In this document: piece after piece, positions 5,978 through 39,081 of the stretch
Layout: each line of letters opens with the position of its first letter
Position numbering within the stretch: position 1 is the stretch's first letter
IMG/VR virus record: IMGVR_UViG_3300026518_000003
Location: 1 to 40,927 of that record
Strand: one strand, 5' to 3'
DNA from: a virus
DNA: 40,927 bases
The notes under the pieces: generated by a model
Seen by the model: only the letters and a program-made list of their open reading frames with translations
Databases searched by the model: none
What the model was told of the DNA's origin: nothing
Program-made: the position numbers and the translations under genes

Positions 5978-7492
5978 CTAAGCTAAAGCTAATTGGGTTA
6001 CTGTGCCTGCACTACCTTTGTAGTACAAAGCTCCAGCGCTTATGTATATAATACCCCCACCAACTGGGTTTGTCAAGGGGGCAGTTACTGCATTCATCAT
6101 AGCTAGTACTCCCTTACCACCCCCATAGCTGCTAGTTGATAAACCTACATTCTGGTTAATGAACTCACCTTGTATTAAGGCGGGCTTAGCGGTATTGTAT
6201 CCAATTAGTAATGTATCGCTTACATTAGCAGAAGTAGCTGCACTACCTGTCATGTAACCTATAAACACATTCCGTAGTCCATTATTATACATACCTGCGC
6301 CGTAGCCTAGGAATGAATTATTGCTGCCAGTCTTAAGAAAGCGTCCAGCGAATGCGCCAATTAAGGTATTGCTTCCCCCAGTAGAGCCTAGTTGCATAGG
6401 AAATGCACCTACAAGCGTATTATAGCTGCCTGTAGTGTTAGCTTTCCCTGCACCAGCACCTAGTAAGGTATTGCCAGTGCCTGAGGTTAACTGTTGCCCC
6501 GAATCCCTACCAATAGATACATTCTGTGTACCAGTGGTACACTGGGCTAGTACAGAATCCCCAATAGCTACATTATTACCTACGCTAGAGAACTGTAAGG
6601 TGCGTTGACCTATGCCCACATTACCAGTACCATTGGCTGATATTAAAGCGTTACCGCCTATAGCAATATTATTGGTAGCCGTTGTGATATTTTTCAAGGC
6701 GTTTACGCCTAGGGCAGTATTATTACTTCCAGTTGAACCTGATAGCCCAGAGTTATAACCTATATAAACATTGCCAGTACCTGTGGTGGTACTGTGGCCT
6801 GCCATACCGCCTAGAGCGAGATTATAATTAGCCTTGTTAAGGAATAGGGCGCGATAACCGATAGCCGTACATTGCATTCCAGTTACCTGAGAAGCTAAGG
6901 TGCTTGAGCCAATAGCCAGATTACCTACCCCCGTAGTAAGTGCCTTCAATGAGCCCCTACCTACAGATATGGTATCACTTAGCGCTGAGGCAGTTAGTAA
7001 AGCACTACCTCCTATAGCAATGTTATTAGAACCTGTTAGGTTATTCTTACCTGCAAAATGCCCGAAGCTTATATTCTCTATACCAGTCTGATTCTGGAAG
7101 CCTGCGTAACTGCCTACGGAAGTATTGTAATTAGCAGTGCTATTGCTGAACCCTGCGTGATTACCTAGGGCTACATTCTCCAACCCAGTAGTTATGCTAT
7201 CACCTGCAAACGAGCCTATACCAACCGATAAGTTAGTATTGGGGCAGTTAAATAATGTAGGGATATGCAATAGGTTATTTGAGTTGTTTGCGTCTACACC
7301 AATACCCAGCCAGTTGCCATCAAAGGACAAGGCTATAGGGTCATCCATAAGCACACCACCCCAATCAGAGAATGGGATAGCGGCAACAGACGCCCCTGTA
7401 ATAGTCCCTAATGCTGGAGGAGGAGGTGGAGCAACTGGTGCAGCCTTAGCCGCACCCTTAGGCTTATCAAATGCCTTAGCATTCCCTAGCAT
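5978..7492 (-). CDS. Tail fibre/adhesin with repeated YadA-head-like motifs
   Basis: A 504-aa protein. After a Pro/Ala-rich linker (residues 8-28) and a short globular part, residues about 85-430 consist of many short imperfect repeats of the type TTGxxNxxIGxxA, for example ENVALGNHAGF, NNIAIGGSAL and NVSIGRDSGQQLTSGTGN. Such repeats form left-handed beta-rolls in YadA-type trimeric adhesin heads and in phage fibres. The C-terminal end (GGGIIYISAGALYYKGSAGT) resembles the closing segment of many tail fibres. The likely role is host surface recognition as a trimer. It sits between the adaptor and the lysis genes. Fibre assignment is strong; the receptor is unknown. Confidence 0.88.
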   Translation of the reverse strand: MLGNAKAFDKPKGAAKAAPVAPPPPPALGTITGASVAAIPFSDWGGVLMDDPIALSFDGNWLGIGVDANNSNNLLHIPTLFNCPNTNLSVGIGSFAGDSITTGLENVALGNHAGFSNSTANYNTSVGSYAGFQNQTGIENISFGHFAGKNNLTGSNNIAIGGSALLTASALSDTISVGRGSLKALTTGVGNLAIGSSTLASQVTGMQCTAIGYRALFLNKANYNLALGGMAGHSTTTGTGNVYIGYNSGLSGSTGSNNTALGVNALKNITTATNNIAIGGNALISANGTGNVGIGQRTLQFSSVGNNVAIGDSVLAQCTTGTQNVSIGRDSGQQLTSGTGNTLLGAGAGKANTTGSYNTLVGAFPMQLGSTGGSNTLIGAFAGRFLKTGSNNSFLGYGAGMYNNGLRNVFIGYMTGSAATSANVSDTLLIGYNTAKPALIQGEFINQNVGLSTSSYGGGKGVLAMMNAVTAPLTNPVGGGIIYISAGALYYKGSAGTVTQLALA

Positions 7493-10363: not shown

Positions 10364-10633
10364 TTACTCCTTTGTTGTATCCCGTGGGATTATTACATTA
10401 GCCGCAAGTAATGCGTCTAAAATTTGTACCTGCCCTGCTAGGTAGGCATTATTATACCTTATATCATCAGCATTAGCTGATTCTGGAGGTAATAATTTAA
10501 GCTCCAATGCATCATGTTTAATGCGTTGTAGATAAGCTTTAATTAAGTCATTGCCTAAGGCATGACGGATTAGCCTAACCTCCTCATCATTAAACACCCA
10601 AGGTAAGGCTTTAGTATTAGCTTCTAACTTCAT
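10364..10633 (-). CDS. Unknown small protein upstream of scaffold, 89 aa
   Basis: Starts MKLEANTKALPWVFNDEEVR and is predicted helical, with no recognised family. It is the first gene after the structured RNA at 10643-10807. Its Shine-Dalgarno sequence AAGGAG (about 10639-10644) adjoins and partly overlaps the RNA's possible closing strand GGAATAA. The gene is therefore a candidate target of RNA-structure control. It precedes the scaffold by three bases and is probably coupled to it. Confidence 0.78.
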   Translation of the reverse strand: MKLEANTKALPWVFNDEEVRLIRHALGNDLIKAYLQRIKHDALELKLLPPESANADDIRYNNAYLAGQVQILDALLAANVIIPRDTTKE

Positions 10634-10642
10634 ATAGACTCC

Positions 10643-10807
10643 TTATTCCGTATATCCTTGAACGCAGAGCTACCCTAGTCCCCCGACTACGACCGTCAAG
10701 TACCCACTACCGCCAGTCGCGCTTACGCGCTTTCAGGCTCTCGCTAGGGTACATTGACTGGTCTCGTCTGGGTGGACGGGCTACGCCCTGCTCCAAGGAA
10801 TAAACTA
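10643..10807 (-). ncRNA. Structured RNA element, copy 1 (pseudoknot; leader of scaffold-capsid genes)
   Basis: This lies in a 211-base gene-free gap between portal and the 89-aa gene. On the minus strand, in order: TAGTTTATTCCTTG (10807-10794), hairpin GGGC-GTA-GCCC (10788-10778), CCAGTC (10761-10756), AATG, TACCCTAG (10751-10744), C, GAGAG (10742-10738), a hairpin GCGC-GTAA-GCGC (10730-10719, GNRA loop), then directly GACTGG (10718-10713). CTAGGGTA (10678-10671) and TTCAAGG (ending 10656) follow. CCAGTC/GACTGG and TACCCTAG/CTAGGGTA interleave, giving an H-type pseudoknot. CCTTG/CAAGG and TTATT/AATAA can close the domain. A competing stem, GTCAA.TGTACCC (10758-10747) with GGGTAC.TTGAC (10705-10695), excludes the pseudoknot, so the RNA could be bistable. 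A related copy lies at 21063-21206. The class is not recognised; function is unknown. Confidence 0.7.
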
Positions 10808-10844: not shown

Positions 10845-12785
10845 CTAGCCTTGTTGCTGTCCCTGCTGCTGTTGTGCCATTTGCATCATCTCACCCAAGT
10901 AAGGCATAGCGGCAGCAATAATAGACTCTTTCGCCTGCGGGTCTAGCTTATACTGGGATAGATTCTTAACGCCCATCAGGCTCATTAAGTGGGCGAATAG
11001 GTCTGGCATATCGTAACCCATGTTAATCTGAGGATTCTGCTGTAAGACTTGGAAGGCTAGTTGAAGCTGCTGAGTGTCCGCCATCTTAGATTTAGGGGTG
11101 TAGCCATCAGCTACCTTGAACTCTAGTACAGTATCGAGGAACTCGCCCGGCTTAGCAGTATGTAGGTCTCCAGTATTGAAGGATAATGCAGTAATCTCAT
11201 CCTTATGAGAGATAATGTTTAACTTGATAATATCCTTCAAGGGCATCATAACCTGCATTTCCATCATTAAGGCAATCATACGACTACGGAGACTGGCGCT
11301 GTTATCAATCTGTTGGAACTCGCCTAAGGTACGGTTGCCTTTAACAGTCTGCCCTTGACGGAAAGGGTTAATGCCGAACAGCATATTGGACATTTGGATT
11401 GTTTGTTGCAAGTCCTGCATTGCGCCTGTAGTGCTAGTGTCTTGGAATGGGATAGGCTTGTAGGCATCGTTTAGGGTCTTACCCATTGTAAGATTACGCA
11501 CTGGGATTTTAGCTGCGGGTGTAGGGCTATTCACATCTACAGGGTCTATAAGGTTAGCATCATATAAGCCGCGGTCATTGATACTACGCTTAGCACTGTT
11601 GATGCGGATGTTGTACATATCACTAGCTGCTTGCTGGAAGGGTTGCTGTGCTTCGCCAATGCCACGGGTTTGGTAGCTGAAGCCATCCTCAATAGCCTGT
11701 CCGAACATAATGGGTAGGCGGTCATAGGGGGACTCTACAGGCTGCGCATGGATTATCACAGCTTCATTTACAATTTGTAACTTCCAGATTTGCGGGGTAT
11801 TAACCTCAGGTACTACAATATGATGCTCTTTAGGGATAATGCGGCAATAGATTGTGGCTACTTCGTACATATTAGCATAGCCGGGGTACAATCCCGGGGC
11901 TTGTGTAGTCCCCTCTAACCATTCTAGGTAGGTGCTACCTTGTGCATATGCACCACTATCTACATATTTACTAACCTGAGGCTTATCTACGAAAGTGATA
12001 GGTGAACCAGCACTAGCTATGCTGCCTTCGGCTACACTACCAGAAGCCAATGCACTAATACCAGCCTTATTATTAAGCGCAAGCTTGACATTCATATGGG
12101 TTTGTTCACGGCTATACTTATTAAGTAAGCGTTTAAGCTCAATACGGGACATTAATTCTACATACCCGCCATACTCACCCTGCTCCGCTACATCGGCGGG
12201 AGCTACACGATAGTCCCAGATGGTGTTATAGGGGTCTAACCTACGCACCTTAGTCAACAACTGGCTAGGAGATAACCCTTCTCTATCCTTGCTACCAAAG
12301 GACTTAGCTAACGCCTTACTAAACTCATCCATGCTACCCCAAGCGCCCTCCAATGCACAGAAGTTATACTTAGCTGCATCACGGAATAGCATTTGAAACT
12401 GTCTGGCATATCTACCCTTAACGGCATGACTATCCACAATACTCTCAAACTTCTCAGCTATAACCTTATTCTGGCTATTGGAGACTATAGGGAAGATTGG
12501 ATAACCGCTAAGGTATACATCTACTAAGTAAGCTACTACACTGTCCACTTGACTGGCGATGATAGGAATCTGCACATCAGATACAGGTAATAGCTTAGCT
12601 AAATCTACCTCGTTAACAGGTAATGCATCCTTCACCTGCGTAGCTTTGTAACAGGCGTAAGCAATGTCCACACTAGCCAGCTTATCTGCAAACTGCGTGA
12701 ATCTGCGCTTAGTCTCAAGGACGGAGGTAGCGTAGCGTACCAGACTATCCTGAGACTTCTTACTTAATACTAATGCGTTTGCCAT
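10845..12785 (-). CDS. Portal protein
   Basis: A 646-aa head-tail connector through which DNA is packaged and ejected. It starts MANALVLSKKSQDSLVRYAT. The middle part has typical podovirus portal features: YDRLPIMFGQ, GEAQQPFQQAASDMYNIRIN, MLFGINPFRQGQTVKGNRT and a following long helix with IALMMEMQVMMPLKDII. The C-terminus ends in a Gln-rich tail (MMQMAQQQQGQQQG), as in the coiled-coil barrels of many podovirus portals. It follows the large terminase by 8 bases. Its stop is followed within a few bases by the untranslated structured region. Confidence 0.9.
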   Translation of the reverse strand: MANALVLSKKSQDSLVRYATSVLETKRRFTQFADKLASVDIAYACYKATQVKDALPVNEVDLAKLLPVSDVQIPIIASQVDSVVAYLVDVYLSGYPIFPIVSNSQNKVIAEKFESIVDSHAVKGRYARQFQMLFRDAAKYNFCALEGAWGSMDEFSKALAKSFGSKDREGLSPSQLLTKVRRLDPYNTIWDYRVAPADVAEQGEYGGYVELMSRIELKRLLNKYSREQTHMNVKLALNNKAGISALASGSVAEGSIASAGSPITFVDKPQVSKYVDSGAYAQGSTYLEWLEGTTQAPGLYPGYANMYEVATIYCRIIPKEHHIVVPEVNTPQIWKLQIVNEAVIIHAQPVESPYDRLPIMFGQAIEDGFSYQTRGIGEAQQPFQQAASDMYNIRINSAKRSINDRGLYDANLIDPVDVNSPTPAAKIPVRNLTMGKTLNDAYKPIPFQDTSTTGAMQDLQQTIQMSNMLFGINPFRQGQTVKGNRTLGEFQQIDNSASLRSRMIALMMEMQVMMPLKDIIKLNIISHKDEITALSFNTGDLHTAKPGEFLDTVLEFKVADGYTPKSKMADTQQLQLAFQVLQQNPQINMGYDMPDLFAHLMSLMGVKNLSQYKLDPQAKESIIAAAMPYLGEMMQMAQQQQGQQQG

Positions 12786-14855: not shown

Positions 14856-14930
14856 TAGTCTACTCCTGTACTCTAAAATTTTTTAGAAATTTTTTATGGA
14901 CTGCTTTAATAGGCGAGAGCTTTTAATCTT

Positions 14931-14957
14931 AAAAAAGCCCCTTGGGGGGTTGGGGGG
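14931..14957 (-). terminator. Weak terminator-like G/C run with T tract
   Basis: On the minus strand, two C runs (14957-14952, 14949-14944) precede GGGGC and then TTTTTT (14936-14931). Pairing the first C run with GGGG gives a short hairpin with a T tract. It lies inside the gene-free leader of terS (14856-15123), so it would attenuate transcription into the packaging genes. The same leader also holds a TATACT flanked by a 7-base inverted repeat (14999-15005 / 15030-15036). Confidence 0.3.
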
Positions 14958-15057
14958 ATGTAGGTTTGTGAGCCTGCGAACTATTCTTAGCGCAGATTAG
15001 CTGTTCTCAGGCTTAGGCTAGTATAGGGTAACAGCTAGGCTAGGCATTGAAAATAGC

Positions 15058-15088
15058 AAAAAAAAAGGGGCAAGCGTAAACTTGCCCC
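15058..15088 (-). terminator. Rho-independent terminator after the 193-aa gene
   Basis: On the minus strand an 8-bp stem GGGGCAAG / CTTGCCCC with a six-base loop (TTTACG) is followed by nine T residues (15066-15058). It sits 36 bases beyond the stop of the 193-aa gene. It separates the short leftward early-type genes from terminase, so the late genes need readthrough, antitermination or their own promoter. Confidence 0.9.
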
Positions 15089-15123
15089 CCCCCTTTGGTT
15101 GGTGGTTGGTGCTTAGGTGTGGC

Positions 15124-15794: not shown

Positions 15795-15823
15795 GGCGGT
15801 AAGGCGTGCGCTTACCCTCGCAA
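15795..15823 (-). repeat. Intercistronic hairpin repeat, copy 1
   Basis: The plus-strand block GGCGGTA.GGC.T.CGC.TACCCTCGCAA occurs here and at 16133-16161. It encloses a hairpin, GGTAAG / CTTACC with loop GCGTGCG. The other copy has GGTAGG / CCTACC with loop GCATACG, so a base pair has changed on both sides (A-T to G-C). Each copy lies in the short gap between two leftward genes. An RNA stability or processing hairpin, or a protein site, would fit. Confidence 0.65.
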
Positions 15824-16132: not shown

Positions 16133-16161
16133 GGCGGTAGGGCATACGCCTACCCTCGCAA
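16133..16161 (-). repeat. Intercistronic hairpin repeat, copy 2
   Basis: This is the second copy of the block described at 15795-15823, with stem GGTAGG (16136-16141) / CCTACC (16149-16154) and loop GCATACG. It is followed on the plus strand by the same CTCGCAA. It lies between the 78-aa and 88-aa genes. Confidence 0.65.
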
Positions 16162-16590: not shown

Positions 16591-16648
16591 TATCTTGCCC
16601 TCCTAAGATAGCGGCTAGGATGATGATTATCATGGTTATAAGTTCCAT
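16580..16648 (-). CDS. Micro-ORF: 22-aa hydrophobic peptide
   Basis: ATG at 16648 has an excellent ribosome site (GGAGG, 7 bases upstream). It encodes MELITMIIIILAAILGGQDN plus EQ, a single hydrophobic helix with a polar tail that could insert in the membrane. Its 3' end overlaps the start of the 60-aa gene by 11 bases. The 17 bases covering its ribosome site and start are identical to those before the 19-aa ORF at 16729-16788. It could be a leader peptide or a membrane micro-protein. Confidence 0.55.
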   Translation of the reverse strand: MELITMIIIILAAILGGQDNEQ

Positions 16649-16674
16649 TGTGTAGCCTCCTGTAGTATAGGGGG

Positions 16675-16713
16675 AACGCTAGGGGCTAGCGTTTAGGTTG
16701 TCAACCCCTAGCG
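16675..16713. repeat. Nested inverted repeats between two micro-ORFs
   Basis: AACGCTAG / CTAGCGTT (16675-16682, 16686-16693) forms an 8-bp hairpin with loop GGG. ACGCTAGGGG (16676-16685) can instead pair with CCCCTAGCGT (16704-16713), a 10-bp stem. The two folds exclude each other. A T run follows on the plus strand (16720-16725), so an attenuator or operator is possible. It lies between the 19-aa and 22-aa ORFs. Confidence 0.55.
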
Positions 16714-16728
16714 TAAACCTTTTTTGTG

Positions 16729-16788
16729 CTAGTCTTTTTTCTTAGGTGGGGTAAGGTCATAATCGTAAAGGGTGTAGTCTTTCGCCAT
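16729..16788 (-). CDS. Micro-ORF: 19-aa first leftward peptide
   Basis: ATG at 16788 with GGAGG 7 bases upstream encodes MAKDYTLYDYDLTPPKKKD and then TAG. The peptide is polar, Tyr/Asp-rich with a Lys tail. It is the first ORF downstream of the strong leftward promoter at 16839-16867 and shares its 17-base leader with the 22-aa micro-ORF. A leader-peptide role or a very small early effector is possible. Confidence 0.5.
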   Translation of the reverse strand: MAKDYTLYDYDLTPPKKKD

Positions 16789-16838
16789 TGTGTAGCCTCC
16801 TTTTTGTGGTGTCGGCGTTCCGCCTTGCCGATGTGGAA

Positions 16839-16867
16839 ATTATAGCGGCAAGGGCTAGGCTACGCAA
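16839..16867 (-). promoter_or_regulatory. Leftward early promoter
   Basis: Minus strand: -35 TTGCGT (16867-16862), 17-base spacer, perfect -10 TATAAT (16844-16839). Transcription would start near 16832 and read through the 19-aa, 22-aa, 60-aa, 78-aa and 88-aa ORFs. A small hairpin TCGGC / GCCGA lies in the leader. Confidence 0.75.
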
Positions 16868-17147
16868 GGGGTAATTTTGCACCATAGGGGCGGATTTTTT
16901 ACGCTATGGCGTGGCTAGGTTGGCATGGCGCTTGCTATTATTTAGATGCCTATTTTACGGGTGTTATATTAGACTATTATTATATTAGCATATGATTATA
17001 TGATTATATTAGTATATGGTGGGATTATGATACTACGCTAGTATGATGGGATAAGCTAGACCTACTAACAAGGCTGTACTATACTCAGGCGAGATAGTAT
17101 ATTAGATTAGATGCAGTGGGAGTAGGTTATTAGTACTCAGACTAATG

Positions 17148-17156
17148 TGGTATAAT
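17148..17156 (+). promoter_or_regulatory. Candidate rightward early promoter (extended -10)
   Basis: TGGTATAAT is an extended -10 motif (TGn plus TATAAT). The -35 (TTATTA at 17127-17132, 18-base spacer) is weak, which is usual with an extended -10. It would give a long leader of more than 500 bases before the first rightward gene. Confidence 0.45.
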
Positions 17157-17661
17157 AAATATTATTTATTTAATGTTGATTCAAGATTGGGGGATTAGTG
17201 TTAGGTTGGGTAGGTTAGTGCTAGTGTGTTAGTCTATTTCGTTAAAAAAGCGGGAAGTGCGGAAAAAAGTGTCTCCCCCTCGGTCGGGGCGTTTAGGTTT
17301 TCGCGTGAAGGCTTAAAGAATCTTTAGGATTATGTAATTTAGAAAAAGTCTGAAAAAAAGAAACACTATGATGTTAGGTTATTATTATGTTATATATAGA
17401 TTATTAGTATATTAGGTTTAATAGAGTAGAATAATTATCTTTTTTATTTTGTAGGGTATATTGTAAAAACTTAAATCAGGCGCGCTAGGGGGACGCACTT
17501 TTTCCAGATATTCCATGCAATCCAACGATTTAACCTAGATACCTATACCATAATCCTATCATAGAAGGTTAGTTTAGTATATCCTAAGGCTAATAGGTAA
17601 AAAATTAAATTAAGAATCATAAATTGATTTTATTGATTTAAGATGTTAGCTTATTGAAAGG

Positions 17662-17680
17662 GGTTAGGGATAACCTAACC
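17662..17680 (+). promoter_or_regulatory. Inverted repeat in early leader, operator or hairpin
   Basis: GGTTAGG (17662-17668) and CCTAACC (17674-17680) flank GATAA, a perfect 7-bp inverted repeat. It lies 11 bases before the GGAGG ribosome site of the first rightward gene. The half-site GTTAGG resembles the TTAGGTT repeats further upstream. It could be an operator for a small phage regulator or an RNA hairpin limiting translation. Confidence 0.55.
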
Positions 17681-17702
17681 ATAACAAACAGGAGGTTGTA
17701 CT

Positions 17703-20960: not shown

Positions 20961-20974
20961 GCGCACCATAGAAG

Positions 20975-21010
20975 GGGTGGCTGGCACATGCCAGTCGCCC
21001 TTTTCTTTTA
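20975..21010 (+). terminator. Rho-independent terminator of the early operon
   Basis: An 11-bp stem GGGTGGCTGGC / GCCAGTCGCCC (20975-20985, 20990-21000; two G-T pairs) with loop ACAT is followed by TTTTCTTTTA. It ends the rightward early transcript. Confidence 0.93.
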
Positions 21011-21062: not shown

Positions 21063-21206
21063 TAGTTTATTCCTTGTACCGCCGCGGAAAATGCAGTATA
21101 GGCTAAGTGAGAGTCAAGCACGCCTAGCGAGCAAGCATAGCGCAGCGAGTGGCTGCTTTACCGAACGCTAAGCCTATACTATCATTTTCAAGGCTGGTTC
21201 GAGGAA
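21063..21206 (+). ncRNA. Structured RNA element, copy 2 (pseudoknot)
   Basis: This lies in the gene-free gap 20961-21513. In order: TAGTTTATTCCTTG (21063-21076, the same 14-mer as in copy 1), CGGAAA (21085-21090), AATG (21090-21093), AGTATAGGCTAAG (21095-21107), T, GAGAG (21109-21113) and hairpin GCAGC-GAGTG-GCTGC (21142-21156). Then directly TTTACCG (21157-21163), CTAAGCCTATACT (21168-21180), TTTTCAAGG (to 21193) and GGAA (21203-21206). The 13-base arms pair with one A-A mismatch. CGGAAA can pair with TTTACCG (one bulge), interleaved with the long stem, the same pseudoknot as copy 1 but with different base pairs. CTATACT also has a second partner, AGTATAG, at 21222-21228. There is no adjacent start codon, so it may act as a free RNA. 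The class is not recognised. Confidence 0.65.
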
Positions 21207-21403
21207 TTGGACGGCTAAATCAGTATAGCTAGCTTATATGACACTTCACACTACATAACCCCTATAAATTAACCGATTTATCAAGCTTTCTTTTTAGCCT
21301 TTATATTTATGCACATAAAAAACTAAAGTCAATTTATGGGGTGTTTGCTTTCGTGTATCGGCGGAACGCCGCCGCCCGTACCCCCTGAATCACCCATAAA
21401 CGC

Positions 21404-21431
21404 TTGCAATATCCCCCGTTTTCTGTATATT
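21404..21431 (+). promoter_or_regulatory. Sigma-70-like promoter of the replication genes
   Basis: -35 TTGCAA (21404-21409), 16-base spacer, -10 TATATT (21426-21431). It lies 82 bases before the first replication-region gene. A GGCG-GAA-CGCC hairpin (about 21361-21371) is just upstream and a CTTGC / GCAAG hairpin (21476-21498) is in the leader. The rest of 21207-21403 is AT-rich with no gene. Confidence 0.6.
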
Positions 21432-27446: not shown

Positions 27447-27881
27447 ATGTCATTATTGGACTCTATGCTAGATAAATCAATGGACGAAGTTGAAACCGCA
27501 GCAGAATACTTAGACCTTCCAAATGGAGAGTATCACTTGGAAATCGTAAAGGCTGAACCTAAGGAATACCCTGCTAAGGATGATAAGCCTGCAAGTGTAG
27601 CCGTAACTGTAACCTATAGCGTACTGGAAACTGTAGCATTGAATGATGCTAACCAAACGCCAGTGGATGAAGGTAGCATGAACAGTGAGCGCTTTAACCT
27701 AAACGAGCAAGGTTTGCCTTTCTTCAAACGCTACCTTACTAATGTATTCGGTGAGGCTGACGGGGTATCTTTAGGTGAAGCTATTACCGCCTTGAAAGGT
27801 ACGCAAATCTCATGCTTGGTTAAGAACCGTGAGCATAATGGAACTAACTACATGAGCACTTCGCGTCAAGCTCAGTTGTAA
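27447..27881 (+). CDS. SSB-like single-strand DNA-binding protein
   Basis: A 144-aa protein starting MSLLDSMLDKSMDEVETAAE. The middle has OB-like strands (LPNGEYHLEIVKAEPKEY, ASVAVTVTYSVLETV), an insertion (NSERFNLNEQGLPFFKRYL) and IGTQ-type ISCLVKNREH. This arrangement is usual for phage SSB-like proteins encoded beside Sak4. No acidic C-terminal docking tail is present; the 102-aa protein upstream has one instead. Assignment is by pattern and neighbourhood. Confidence 0.72.
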   Translation: MSLLDSMLDKSMDEVETAAEYLDLPNGEYHLEIVKAEPKEYPAKDDKPASVAVTVTYSVLETVALNDANQTPVDEGSMNSERFNLNEQGLPFFKRYLTNVFGEADGVSLGEAITALKGTQISCLVKNREHNGTNYMSTSRQAQL

Positions 27882-27897
27882 ACTAGCCATAGCGAAT

Positions 27898-28025
27898 GGG
27901 AGTGGGGGCGTAAGCCTCCCTCCTTATCACTGTATGGTCTAGGCTAAATAGTGATAAGGATTTTGGCAATCTTGGGGTGGGTGTAGGAACGCAGGATGCC
28001 GCCGAAATCGGGGCGAGAATGCCCC
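27898..28025 (+). ncRNA. Structured untranslated region after the SSB-like gene
   Basis: Three hairpins fill the gap after the SSB-like gene. First, GGAG.GGGGGC-GTAA-GCCTCCCTCC (27899-27923) has a GNRA-type loop. Second, CCTTATCACT / AGTGATAAGG (27922-27931, 27950-27959) is a perfect 10-bp stem followed by ATTTT. Third, GGGGC / GCCCC (28010-28014, 28021-28025) has loop GAGAAT. The first two share two bases, so they compete slightly. It could be a terminator or attenuator, an RNA stability element or a regulatory leader. Confidence 0.5.
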
Positions 28026-28057
28026 TAGAATCCATCTTAAAAGGGGGAAAGGTACTA

Positions 28058-37630: not shown

Positions 37631-39081
37631 TAAAATAACCCCTCAGAGCCGTATAGCCCTAGTTTAATCAAAGCCTTCTTCTTCTCCTCGGCTAGGTAAT
37701 CAGGCGTAAGCCCTGCGCCTTTATCAATCACGTTAGCCTTGGCAAATATCTCAGTAAGTAAAGAGCCTACATTAGTCTGCATGGTATGGTAATCTAACCC
37801 TTTACCCTCCATAAAAGACTTGTAGTTAGATAGGCTCTTATATCCAGCCTCATGCAGCCCTTTATCCAGCAGGTTTACCGCCAGCTTAGACTGCACGGCG
37901 TGCTGGATGATACTAGGTAGCATAGCCTTGTCCGTAACCATTGAGGACTTATCCTCAGGGTTAGGTAGTTGACCAGCCGTAAACTTAGCTATAATCTCAT
38001 CCCTTACGGATGTCACAATATTAGTCTGCCTTACAGCTTCCTCTTTAGGCGTACCTTCTGCGATAGCTTGTTTACGATAATATCCATTAACCACTGCACC
38101 TGATGCGCCTACATAGTTATTGATTACAGGAGGCACATTCCCAGCTAGGATATTATCTACTACTTTATTCACCTCTTGAGCATTAGCTCCACTTACCATA
38201 TGCGTAATAGCTGCCGCTGGCAAGTCTGTATTGGTAAGCAAGTAATTGGCGTCTGCCTTTTGTCTAGAGTTAACCTCCCCCTTACTTGCCATCTTACGCT
38301 GTGCCAATAGGGCATTATTATGTGCCTCTAAAGCAGCTTTTACGGCAGGGTCGGAGTTGGCTTGATTCTCCGCTAGGGCATAGATACTAGCCTTACGCCC
38401 TGCAATATCCTTAGCTAACTGCAAAGAGTCAATAGCTGCTTGAGGGTCACGCCCGATGAAATTATCCGCATTAGCCTTTAGTTGTACCAGTTGCTGCATT
38501 AGCGGGTCATTCTGCAAGCCTTGCTCATAAATGTTGTCCCTTAGAGTAGTAAACTTAGCTGCATAATCTTGCTGCGTATTGCTTACAGGGTCAGGATACC
38601 CTTTATCCTTTACAATATTCAGCACCCCTACGCCCTTAGGTTTTACCTCAGTCGCATTAAGTTTATCATCAGGAATATTAAGGTAGTGATTAGTCCCTTT
38701 AATCTTGTAGATAGTCTGCCCATTCTGGTCACTAGGCATGACCACTTCTAACTTACTAGGGTCAAGCTCACCTGCGGCAGTCTTTAACAGCTTGGGAACT
38801 TCTACCGCAGGGTGTGCCTTAATCTCCTTCTTAGCTTGTGAGCTTAGTGGGATAGTGGAATGGATAGGCTTATTAACCGCTTCTGTAGCACGCTTTAAGG
38901 TAGCAGTAGCTTCCTTTAGTGTGGTCTTTTTACCATACTCAGGGGTGATAGCCGTCTGGTCGGTTGTCACTTGCTTAGCAAGTCCTGGATTATCTGCAGT
39001 AAGCTTTACTAAATCCTGCTTAATCCCTTGAGGGATATTATCTAGCCCTAACAAGGCTAAAGAATCTCTAAGATTAGTCAT
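37630..39081 (-). CDS. Internal virion protein (T7 gp15 position), 483 aa
   Basis: Starts MTNLRDSLALLGLDNIPQGI. It is mainly helical and charged, with Ala/Gln/Lys-rich stretches (QLVQLKANADNFIGRDPQAA) and no membrane segments. Its stop overlaps the start of the 1519-aa gene (TAATG). Order and composition fit a T7 gp15-like ejectosome tube protein, though it is shorter than T7 gp15 (747 aa). The role is inferred from gene order. Confidence 0.78.
   Translation of the reverse strand: MTNLRDSLALLGLDNIPQGIKQDLVKLTADNPGLAKQVTTDQTAITPEYGKKTTLKEATATLKRATEAVNKPIHSTIPLSSQAKKEIKAHPAVEVPKLLKTAAGELDPSKLEVVMPSDQNGQTIYKIKGTNHYLNIPDDKLNATEVKPKGVGVLNIVKDKGYPDPVSNTQQDYAAKFTTLRDNIYEQGLQNDPLMQQLVQLKANADNFIGRDPQAAIDSLQLAKDIAGRKASIYALAENQANSDPAVKAALEAHNNALLAQRKMASKGEVNSRQKADANYLLTNTDLPAAAITHMVSGANAQEVNKVVDNILAGNVPPVINNYVGASGAVVNGYYRKQAIAEGTPKEEAVRQTNIVTSVRDEIIAKFTAGQLPNPEDKSSMVTDKAMLPSIIQHAVQSKLAVNLLDKGLHEAGYKSLSNYKSFMEGKGLDYHTMQTNVGSLLTEIFAKANVIDKGAGLTPDYLAEEKKKALIKLGLYGSEGLF

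Follow-up and report, generated by a model that had tools for sequence, protein, structure and literature searches.

A family of rod-shaped RNA elements in a podophage genome

The virus record analysed here (the window; 40,927 bases, with a 127-bp repeat at its ends) carries two members, A and B, of a previously undescribed family of long, rod-shaped RNA elements. Element A occupies positions 10643–10807 on the minus strand, in the gap between the portal gene (10845–12785, minus strand) and an 89-aa ORF (10364–10633, minus strand), beyond which come a likely scaffold gene and then the capsid gene. Element B lies at 21063–21207 on the plus strand, between an intrinsic terminator (20971–21004, plus strand) and the promoter region of a helicase-leading operon, where a sigma70-like promoter, TTGCAA-16-TATATT, is found at 21404–21431 (plus strand). 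Judged from comparative sequence analysis, the family appears to consist of rods of about 110–200 nt at intergenic junctions of a wide podophage group that includes this clade and Aeromonas phage P5; the Pseudomonas PaMx41/PaP2/119X group probably belongs here as well. Each rod is a long imperfect helix with variable arms and conserved internal motifs, namely AGUCAA[GGG] opposite [CCC]UU(G/U)AC, CUAGCGAG/CUUAGUG, and apical loops of the GNNA type. The comparisons show a nested structure with compensatory change, recurrence before small ORF, scaffold and capsid genes, gain and loss at this site, and extra copies at other places (B, and several in P5). We give about even chances to the reading that A and B are intercistronic cassettes of this dispersed family, whose probable cis role is to separate downstream genes in expression or to enhance it.

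The window encodes a portal, a terminase, a capsid protein, a helicase, a DNA polymerase and a primase of the type usual in podophages that are kin to EBPR podovirus 3, to Polaromonas phage Tiera, and to the Pseudomonas PaP2/119X/PaMx41 group. Tiera, the EBPR podovirus and PaMx41 are themselves mutually related (PMC9959647). A tRNA/tmRNA search gave no hits, and a search of bacterial genomes for hosts or prophages returned no match.

Structured gaps and the correspondence between A and B

After correction for GC content, A ranks first for structure among all 150-nt windows of the genome, and folding against dinucleotide shuffles gives z scores of −6.9 for A and −5.4 for B. The original prediction of no further structured gap holds approximately, with two exceptions. 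One is the second-ranked 150-nt window, 14951–15100, which was rejected as a further rod because it consists of back-to-back terminators; strong terminator hairpins lie back to back over 14887–15123, where they separate the terS gene from the upstream unit. The other is a structured stretch at 27876–28050 (plus strand), which contains the long hairpin CCTTATCACTGTAT...ATAGTGATAAGG and gives a weak match to covariance model R1 described below (11.2 bits, E 0.62).

The sequences and coordinates of both gaps are as predicted, and the gaps do have the 14-mer TAGTTTATTCCTTG in common. Because the genome contains seven inverted 14-mer pairs, the 14-mer alone is weak evidence of kinship. The true correspondence between A and B is AGTCAA-N6-CTAGCGAG, followed by a hairpin and then TT(G/T)AC, in addition to the 5′ 14-mer. 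In the window, exact AGTCAA-N6-CTAGCGAG occurs only in A (10740–10759, minus strand) and in B (21112–21131, plus strand), where it forms a family core that R1 aligns in register. The proposal that both belong to a single class of structured element is upheld: homologous phages show compensatory changes, and A is placed beside portal and scaffold genes.

Fold and conservation of element A

As for the architecture of A, the outer stem uses the 5′ 14-mer TAGTTTATTCCTTG (10794–10807; all features of A are on the minus strand) as its 5′ arm and CAAGG (10656–10660) as its 3′ arm. The nested core helix is formed by GUCAAUGUACCC (10747–10758), which is kept in the homologous contig L001, and GGGUACUUGAC (10695–10705). 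The AGTCAA motif common to most family members is located at 10754–10759, and the CTAGCGAG motif, also present in B, at 10740–10747. The apical hairpin GCGC-GUAA-GCGC (10719–10730) has a GNNA tetraloop, and its stem pairs covary in the family.

In L001, the closest homologue, with a portal 89% identical to that of the window, A is 82–90% identical per 40-nt window, compared with 55–75% in the flanks. All 11 pairs of the nested helix GTCAA(U)GUACCC/GGGUACUUGAC (DNA form GTCAA(T)GTACCC/GGGTACTTGAC) are kept there, whereas the long stem TACCCTAG/CTAGGGTA of the original prediction is broken (6/8 pairs), the interleaved stem retains five of its six pairs, and the GAGAG motif reads GGGAG. The pseudoknot gives way to nested rods, and homologues do not preserve the interleaved stem. 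When eight A-site cores were aligned, both partners proved to be replaced in 8 of 20 pairs without loss of pairing, and the covariation score was reached by none of 500 shuffles. When the partner was shifted by one column as a sliding control, paired cells fell from 90% to about 50%. The compensatory changes expected in homologues are found for the nested pairs, and the interleaved stem of A is broken in L001.

One conserved A-site pair swaps C-G with U-G, an exchange more in keeping with RNA than with DNA. Furthermore, in each of the 12 clade elements examined, folding is more stable for the sense than for the antisense strand. At the level of sequence and predicted folding, this sense-strand bias and the C-G/U-G exchanges favour A and B acting as RNA. 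No promoter above chance was found within A; the A region has one promoter-like site (1.1 expected), located outside the rod, and a search upstream of A found no conserved promoter. TTGAC in the 3′ arm of A was considered as a −35 box and rejected, since inspection by eye gave no consistent −10 element. A separate observation is a AAAAAAGCGCC-like stretch 5′ of several rods (window, about 10830; L001, 4840; L111, about 180; L006, about 1010; also L013 and L102), which is sometimes pairable with a GGCGTWA stretch immediately 3′ of the rod.

Fold and conservation of element B

Element B has an outer stem between ATTCCTTGTACC (21069–21080; all features of B are on the plus strand) and GGTTCGAGGAAT (21196–21207), in which 11 of 12 pairs form in the window, 11 of 12 in contig L006, and all 12, with changes, in L111. 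Its long stem pairs AGTATAGGCTAAG (21095–21107) with CTAAGCCTATACT (21168–21180), and here the original prediction was right, as L006 has a compensatory T-A to G-C change in this stem. The suggested pairing of CCTTG with TTCAAGG is broken in L006 (4/5); CCTTG pairs instead with CGAGG in the outer stem, and this pairing is compensated in L111. B is 91% identical in L006, which comes from the same sample as L001, and its flanks there are not alignable; about 34 nt upstream of B are also conserved. Comparison of B, L006 and L111 shows 17 of 45 nested pairs doubly compensated with pairing kept, a result given by none of 500 shuffles, and B is therefore also a nested rod.

B aligns almost without gaps with the A-site element of contig G001 (L111 207–348), and among 2.9 million IMG/VR contigs, the three-part B pattern was found in two records only, G001 and L006. 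No equivalent of B exists at the same locus of G001, G002, G003 and G016, which makes B an extra copy of this lineage. Promoter sites like that at 21404–21431 are seen by eye at the equivalent locus of relatives that do not have B. The B region itself has one weak promoter-like site, which overlaps the 3′ arm.

Covariance models and database searches

Model R1 was built from the eight A-site cores. It detects L114, which lies outside its training set, at E 1.4e-14, and places B (21103–21172, E 0.015 within the gap) and the G001 site (E 0.005 within the gap) in the correct register; in a genome-wide search with R1, B is not significant. A second model, R2, was trained without the window and without L001. 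With R2, A ranks first in the window over both strands, although weakly (11.5 bits, E 0.68), so that the assignment of A otherwise rests on common position and motif.

Comparison with Rfam, as originally suggested, yielded no family: the whole window, including B, had no match to Rfam 15 at the gathering threshold, the score on which the result for B is based, and A and the L011 element had none at E up to 1. Blastn of A and the L011 element against phage records also returned no match, and the kinship is visible only by structure, motif and position. Wider DNA patterns searched in IMG/VR gave mostly chance matches besides clade members.

Distribution, gain and loss

An A-type element, recognized by an AGTCAA / TT(G/T)AC core with a covarying apical hairpin, is present at the junction of the portal gene and the small ORF, before the small ORF, scaffold and capsid genes, in ten clade phages (the window, L001, L009, L010, L011, L013, L102, L104, L114 and L111). 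L114 has AGTCCA as core motif, and L111 is a variant with a different apical hairpin. In L008/L111 and L009, an extra ORF precedes the rod. Rods of 165–200 nt occupy the same junction in L019, L021, L078 and L081; since R1 and R2 do not recognize them there, they are regarded as analogues only.

The occurrence is otherwise sporadic. EBPR podovirus 3 and Polaromonas phage Tiera are without the element, in most of the distant relatives the portal gene and the small ORF are not separated by a gap, and L171 has an empty site, with four bases between the genes. Together with the extra copy B and the multiple copies in P5 described below, the empty sites portray a dispersed intergenic element. In L007 and L110, the gap contains a GIY-YIG ORF (PF01541 above cut-off) in place of the rod. 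These ORFs, at about 6356–6713 in L007 and about 1680–2081 in L110, lie exactly at the rod position of other members, and rod and GIY-YIG ORF are mutually exclusive at this junction in the genomes seen.

Relatives in cultured phages

Aeromonas phage P5 (L237), with a portal about 27% identical, carries a clear relative, and Pseudomonas phage PaMx41 (L238) a probable one. R2 matches the gap between the portal gene and the small ORF of P5 (E 0.0013) as well as further P5 sites. About seven rods can be discerned in P5, and all seven are located in gaps between same-strand genes. Five of them contain GTCAAGGG...CCCTT(G/T)AC, which did not arise in any of 100 shuffles of the P5 genome, and the other two were grouped by position, fold and partial motif. 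The arms of the P5 rods differ in sequence, yet form long helices; some copies have two hairpins at the tip, and several fold about equally well in sense and antisense. A strong structure at 37951–38100 of P5 overlaps the end of a coding region, and its motif is not that of the rod family.

In PaMx41, the most structured window (7081–7230 in NC_055711.1), located between gp09 and gp10, immediately precedes the small ORF and the genes for a structural protein and the capsid, and its sequence is 98–100% conserved in 16 records. R2 gives no match to the PaMx41 rod, which is thus grouped by position and fold only. The second most structured window of PaMx41 (42451–42600) is in a gap, on the strand opposite to the genes.

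Proposed function and alternative explanations

The retention of rods before scaffold and capsid genes, their location in same-strand gaps and the sense bias argue for a cis role at the junctions. We propose that the rods are transcribed together with the neighbouring genes and act as cis expression boundaries. The most likely route would be RNase III-like cleavage of the rod and/or shielding of the 5′ end so generated, which would allow the capsid-gene segment of the transcript to be made and to persist independently of the terminase/portal segment. Such RNA processing or 5′-end protection is the simplest mechanism we can infer. Long helices are seen in both A and B; as RNase III sites, they would have to lie in a polycistronic transcript. 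The conserved loop sequences hint at recognition more specific than is usually required by RNase III. Since B follows a terminator and precedes a promoter, and is not within an operon, a boundary role within a transcript is not obviously applicable to it. The rods would in addition move as cassettes from one junction to another, in line with the existence of copies like B, and the position of B between transcription units may indicate that the cassettes also move.

A more far-reaching version, which we hold only tentatively and consider clearly less probable than the cis role as such, is that AGUCAAGGG...CCCUU(G/U)AC is presented on changing arms throughout a large podophage group by a new dispersed RNA family, where it would be bound by a factor of the phage or its host, mark gene junctions across the genome, and set stepwise expression of capsid and replication genes. 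AGUCAAGGG/CCCUUGAC of a P5 rod is the candidate motif for such a putative recognizing factor. If true, this would amount to a junction-marking RNA code that has no known counterpart, with about seven marks in P5.

The main rival to a cis-acting family is selfish, functionless spread, in which mobile or recombination-prone hairpin cassettes come to rest at the intergenic sites that are least affected by them and render no service to the phage. This appears somewhat unlikely, although it would readily accommodate the empty site in L171 and the gapless junction in most relatives, the many P5 copies and the extra copy B, and the GIY-YIG ORFs that take the place of the rod in L007 and L110. It is harder to reconcile with the strong compensatory conservation, with 82–95% identity within A and B while the flanks drift, and with the rod having been retained over the long term at a single place ahead of the capsid genes. 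A rather improbable alternative is that the gaps encode a trans-acting noncoding RNA, such as a regulator, a decoy for host RNase or defence, or an assembly-related RNA. The conserved internal loops and GNNA tetraloops agree with such an RNA, as does the isolated position of B, which has its conserved upstream segment and is flanked by two transcription units, but A has no conserved upstream promoter, and the rods are found between same-strand genes, without exception in P5.

Control of transcription through the nascent RNA, by put-like antitermination or attenuation with the rod acting on RNA polymerase, is improbable. The sense-strand bias and the location of rods within long same-strand gene runs agree with it, whereas A is deep in the late genes and not beside a promoter, and B comes after a terminator. 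We attach equally little probability to a DNA-level site, i.e., an inverted repeat or cruciform with a bound protein, or a recombination site. GTCAAGGG...CCCTTGAC is indeed an inverted repeat, and the equal folding of both strands in several P5 copies would agree, but TTTAC variants break the repeat, and the C-G/U-G exchange at a conserved pair and the consistent sense bias in the clade speak against a function in DNA. The remaining idea, a pseudoknotted HDV-like ribozyme with putative self-cleavage, is largely refuted and has a very low probability. It derives from a strand order seen in the window copy only, and the original prediction of such an order is unsupported: the interleaved and long stems of A are broken in L001, the nested pairs covary, and A lacks an Rfam match even at the relaxed cut-off.

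Comparison with known systems

The resemblance of A to HDV-like ribozymes is superficial, being confined to strand order in the window copy; unlike the double pseudoknot of these ribozymes, the pairing in A and B is nested, and there is no Rfam match. In T7-like phages, RNase III processing hairpins are long imperfect helices between co-transcribed genes. The rods are likewise long imperfect helices between genes, with putative cleavage, but their conserved loop motifs and the copies outside operons are atypical for such hairpins. Arbiol and colleagues reportedly described, in 2010, mobile regulatory cassettes of T4-type phages, termed PeSLs. These consist of an early promoter and a short stem-loop, are intergenic and dispersed, and are linked to module exchange. 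Similarly, the rods are small stem-loop cassettes scattered over the gaps between the genes of a phage, but they have no evident promoter, are longer (110–200 nt), contain conserved internal motifs, and occur in an unrelated phage group. Mitochondrial repetitive or double-hairpin elements are also dispersed between genes and thought to be mobile, and some comprise two hairpins (PMC2800124). The intergenic dispersal, and the two hairpins at some P5 tips, are reminiscent of these elements, although the structure of the rods is kept by compensatory change, the fixed precapsid position is retained, and the genomes are different. The T4-type cassettes and the mitochondrial double-hairpin elements are the nearest ideas, and neither has the conserved core of the rods.

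With this family, an uncatalogued and clearly covarying RNA is added to a phage group whose cultured isolates include P5, and probably PaMx41, PaP2 and 119X. Because cultured Aeromonas and Pseudomonas phages carry a clear and a probable relative, respectively, the function of the rods is testable, and the question of how far more capsid than portal is produced from adjacent genes is now open to a rod-deletion test. Small structured cassettes that appear to move between junctions and share one site with GIY-YIG ORFs also bear on module shuffling in phages.

Other features of the window

A 1.1-kb AT-rich stretch without convincing genes (16591–17702) separates the minus- and plus-strand gene blocks, and may contain an origin or early promoters. 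The 29-mer GGCGGTAAGGCGTGCGCTTACCCTCGCAA, which can form a hairpin, occurs in two similar copies (86%) at 15795–15823 and 16133–16161, just 5′ of two minus-strand genes. The stem sequence differs between the copies with pairing largely intact, and the pair is possibly a shared operator.
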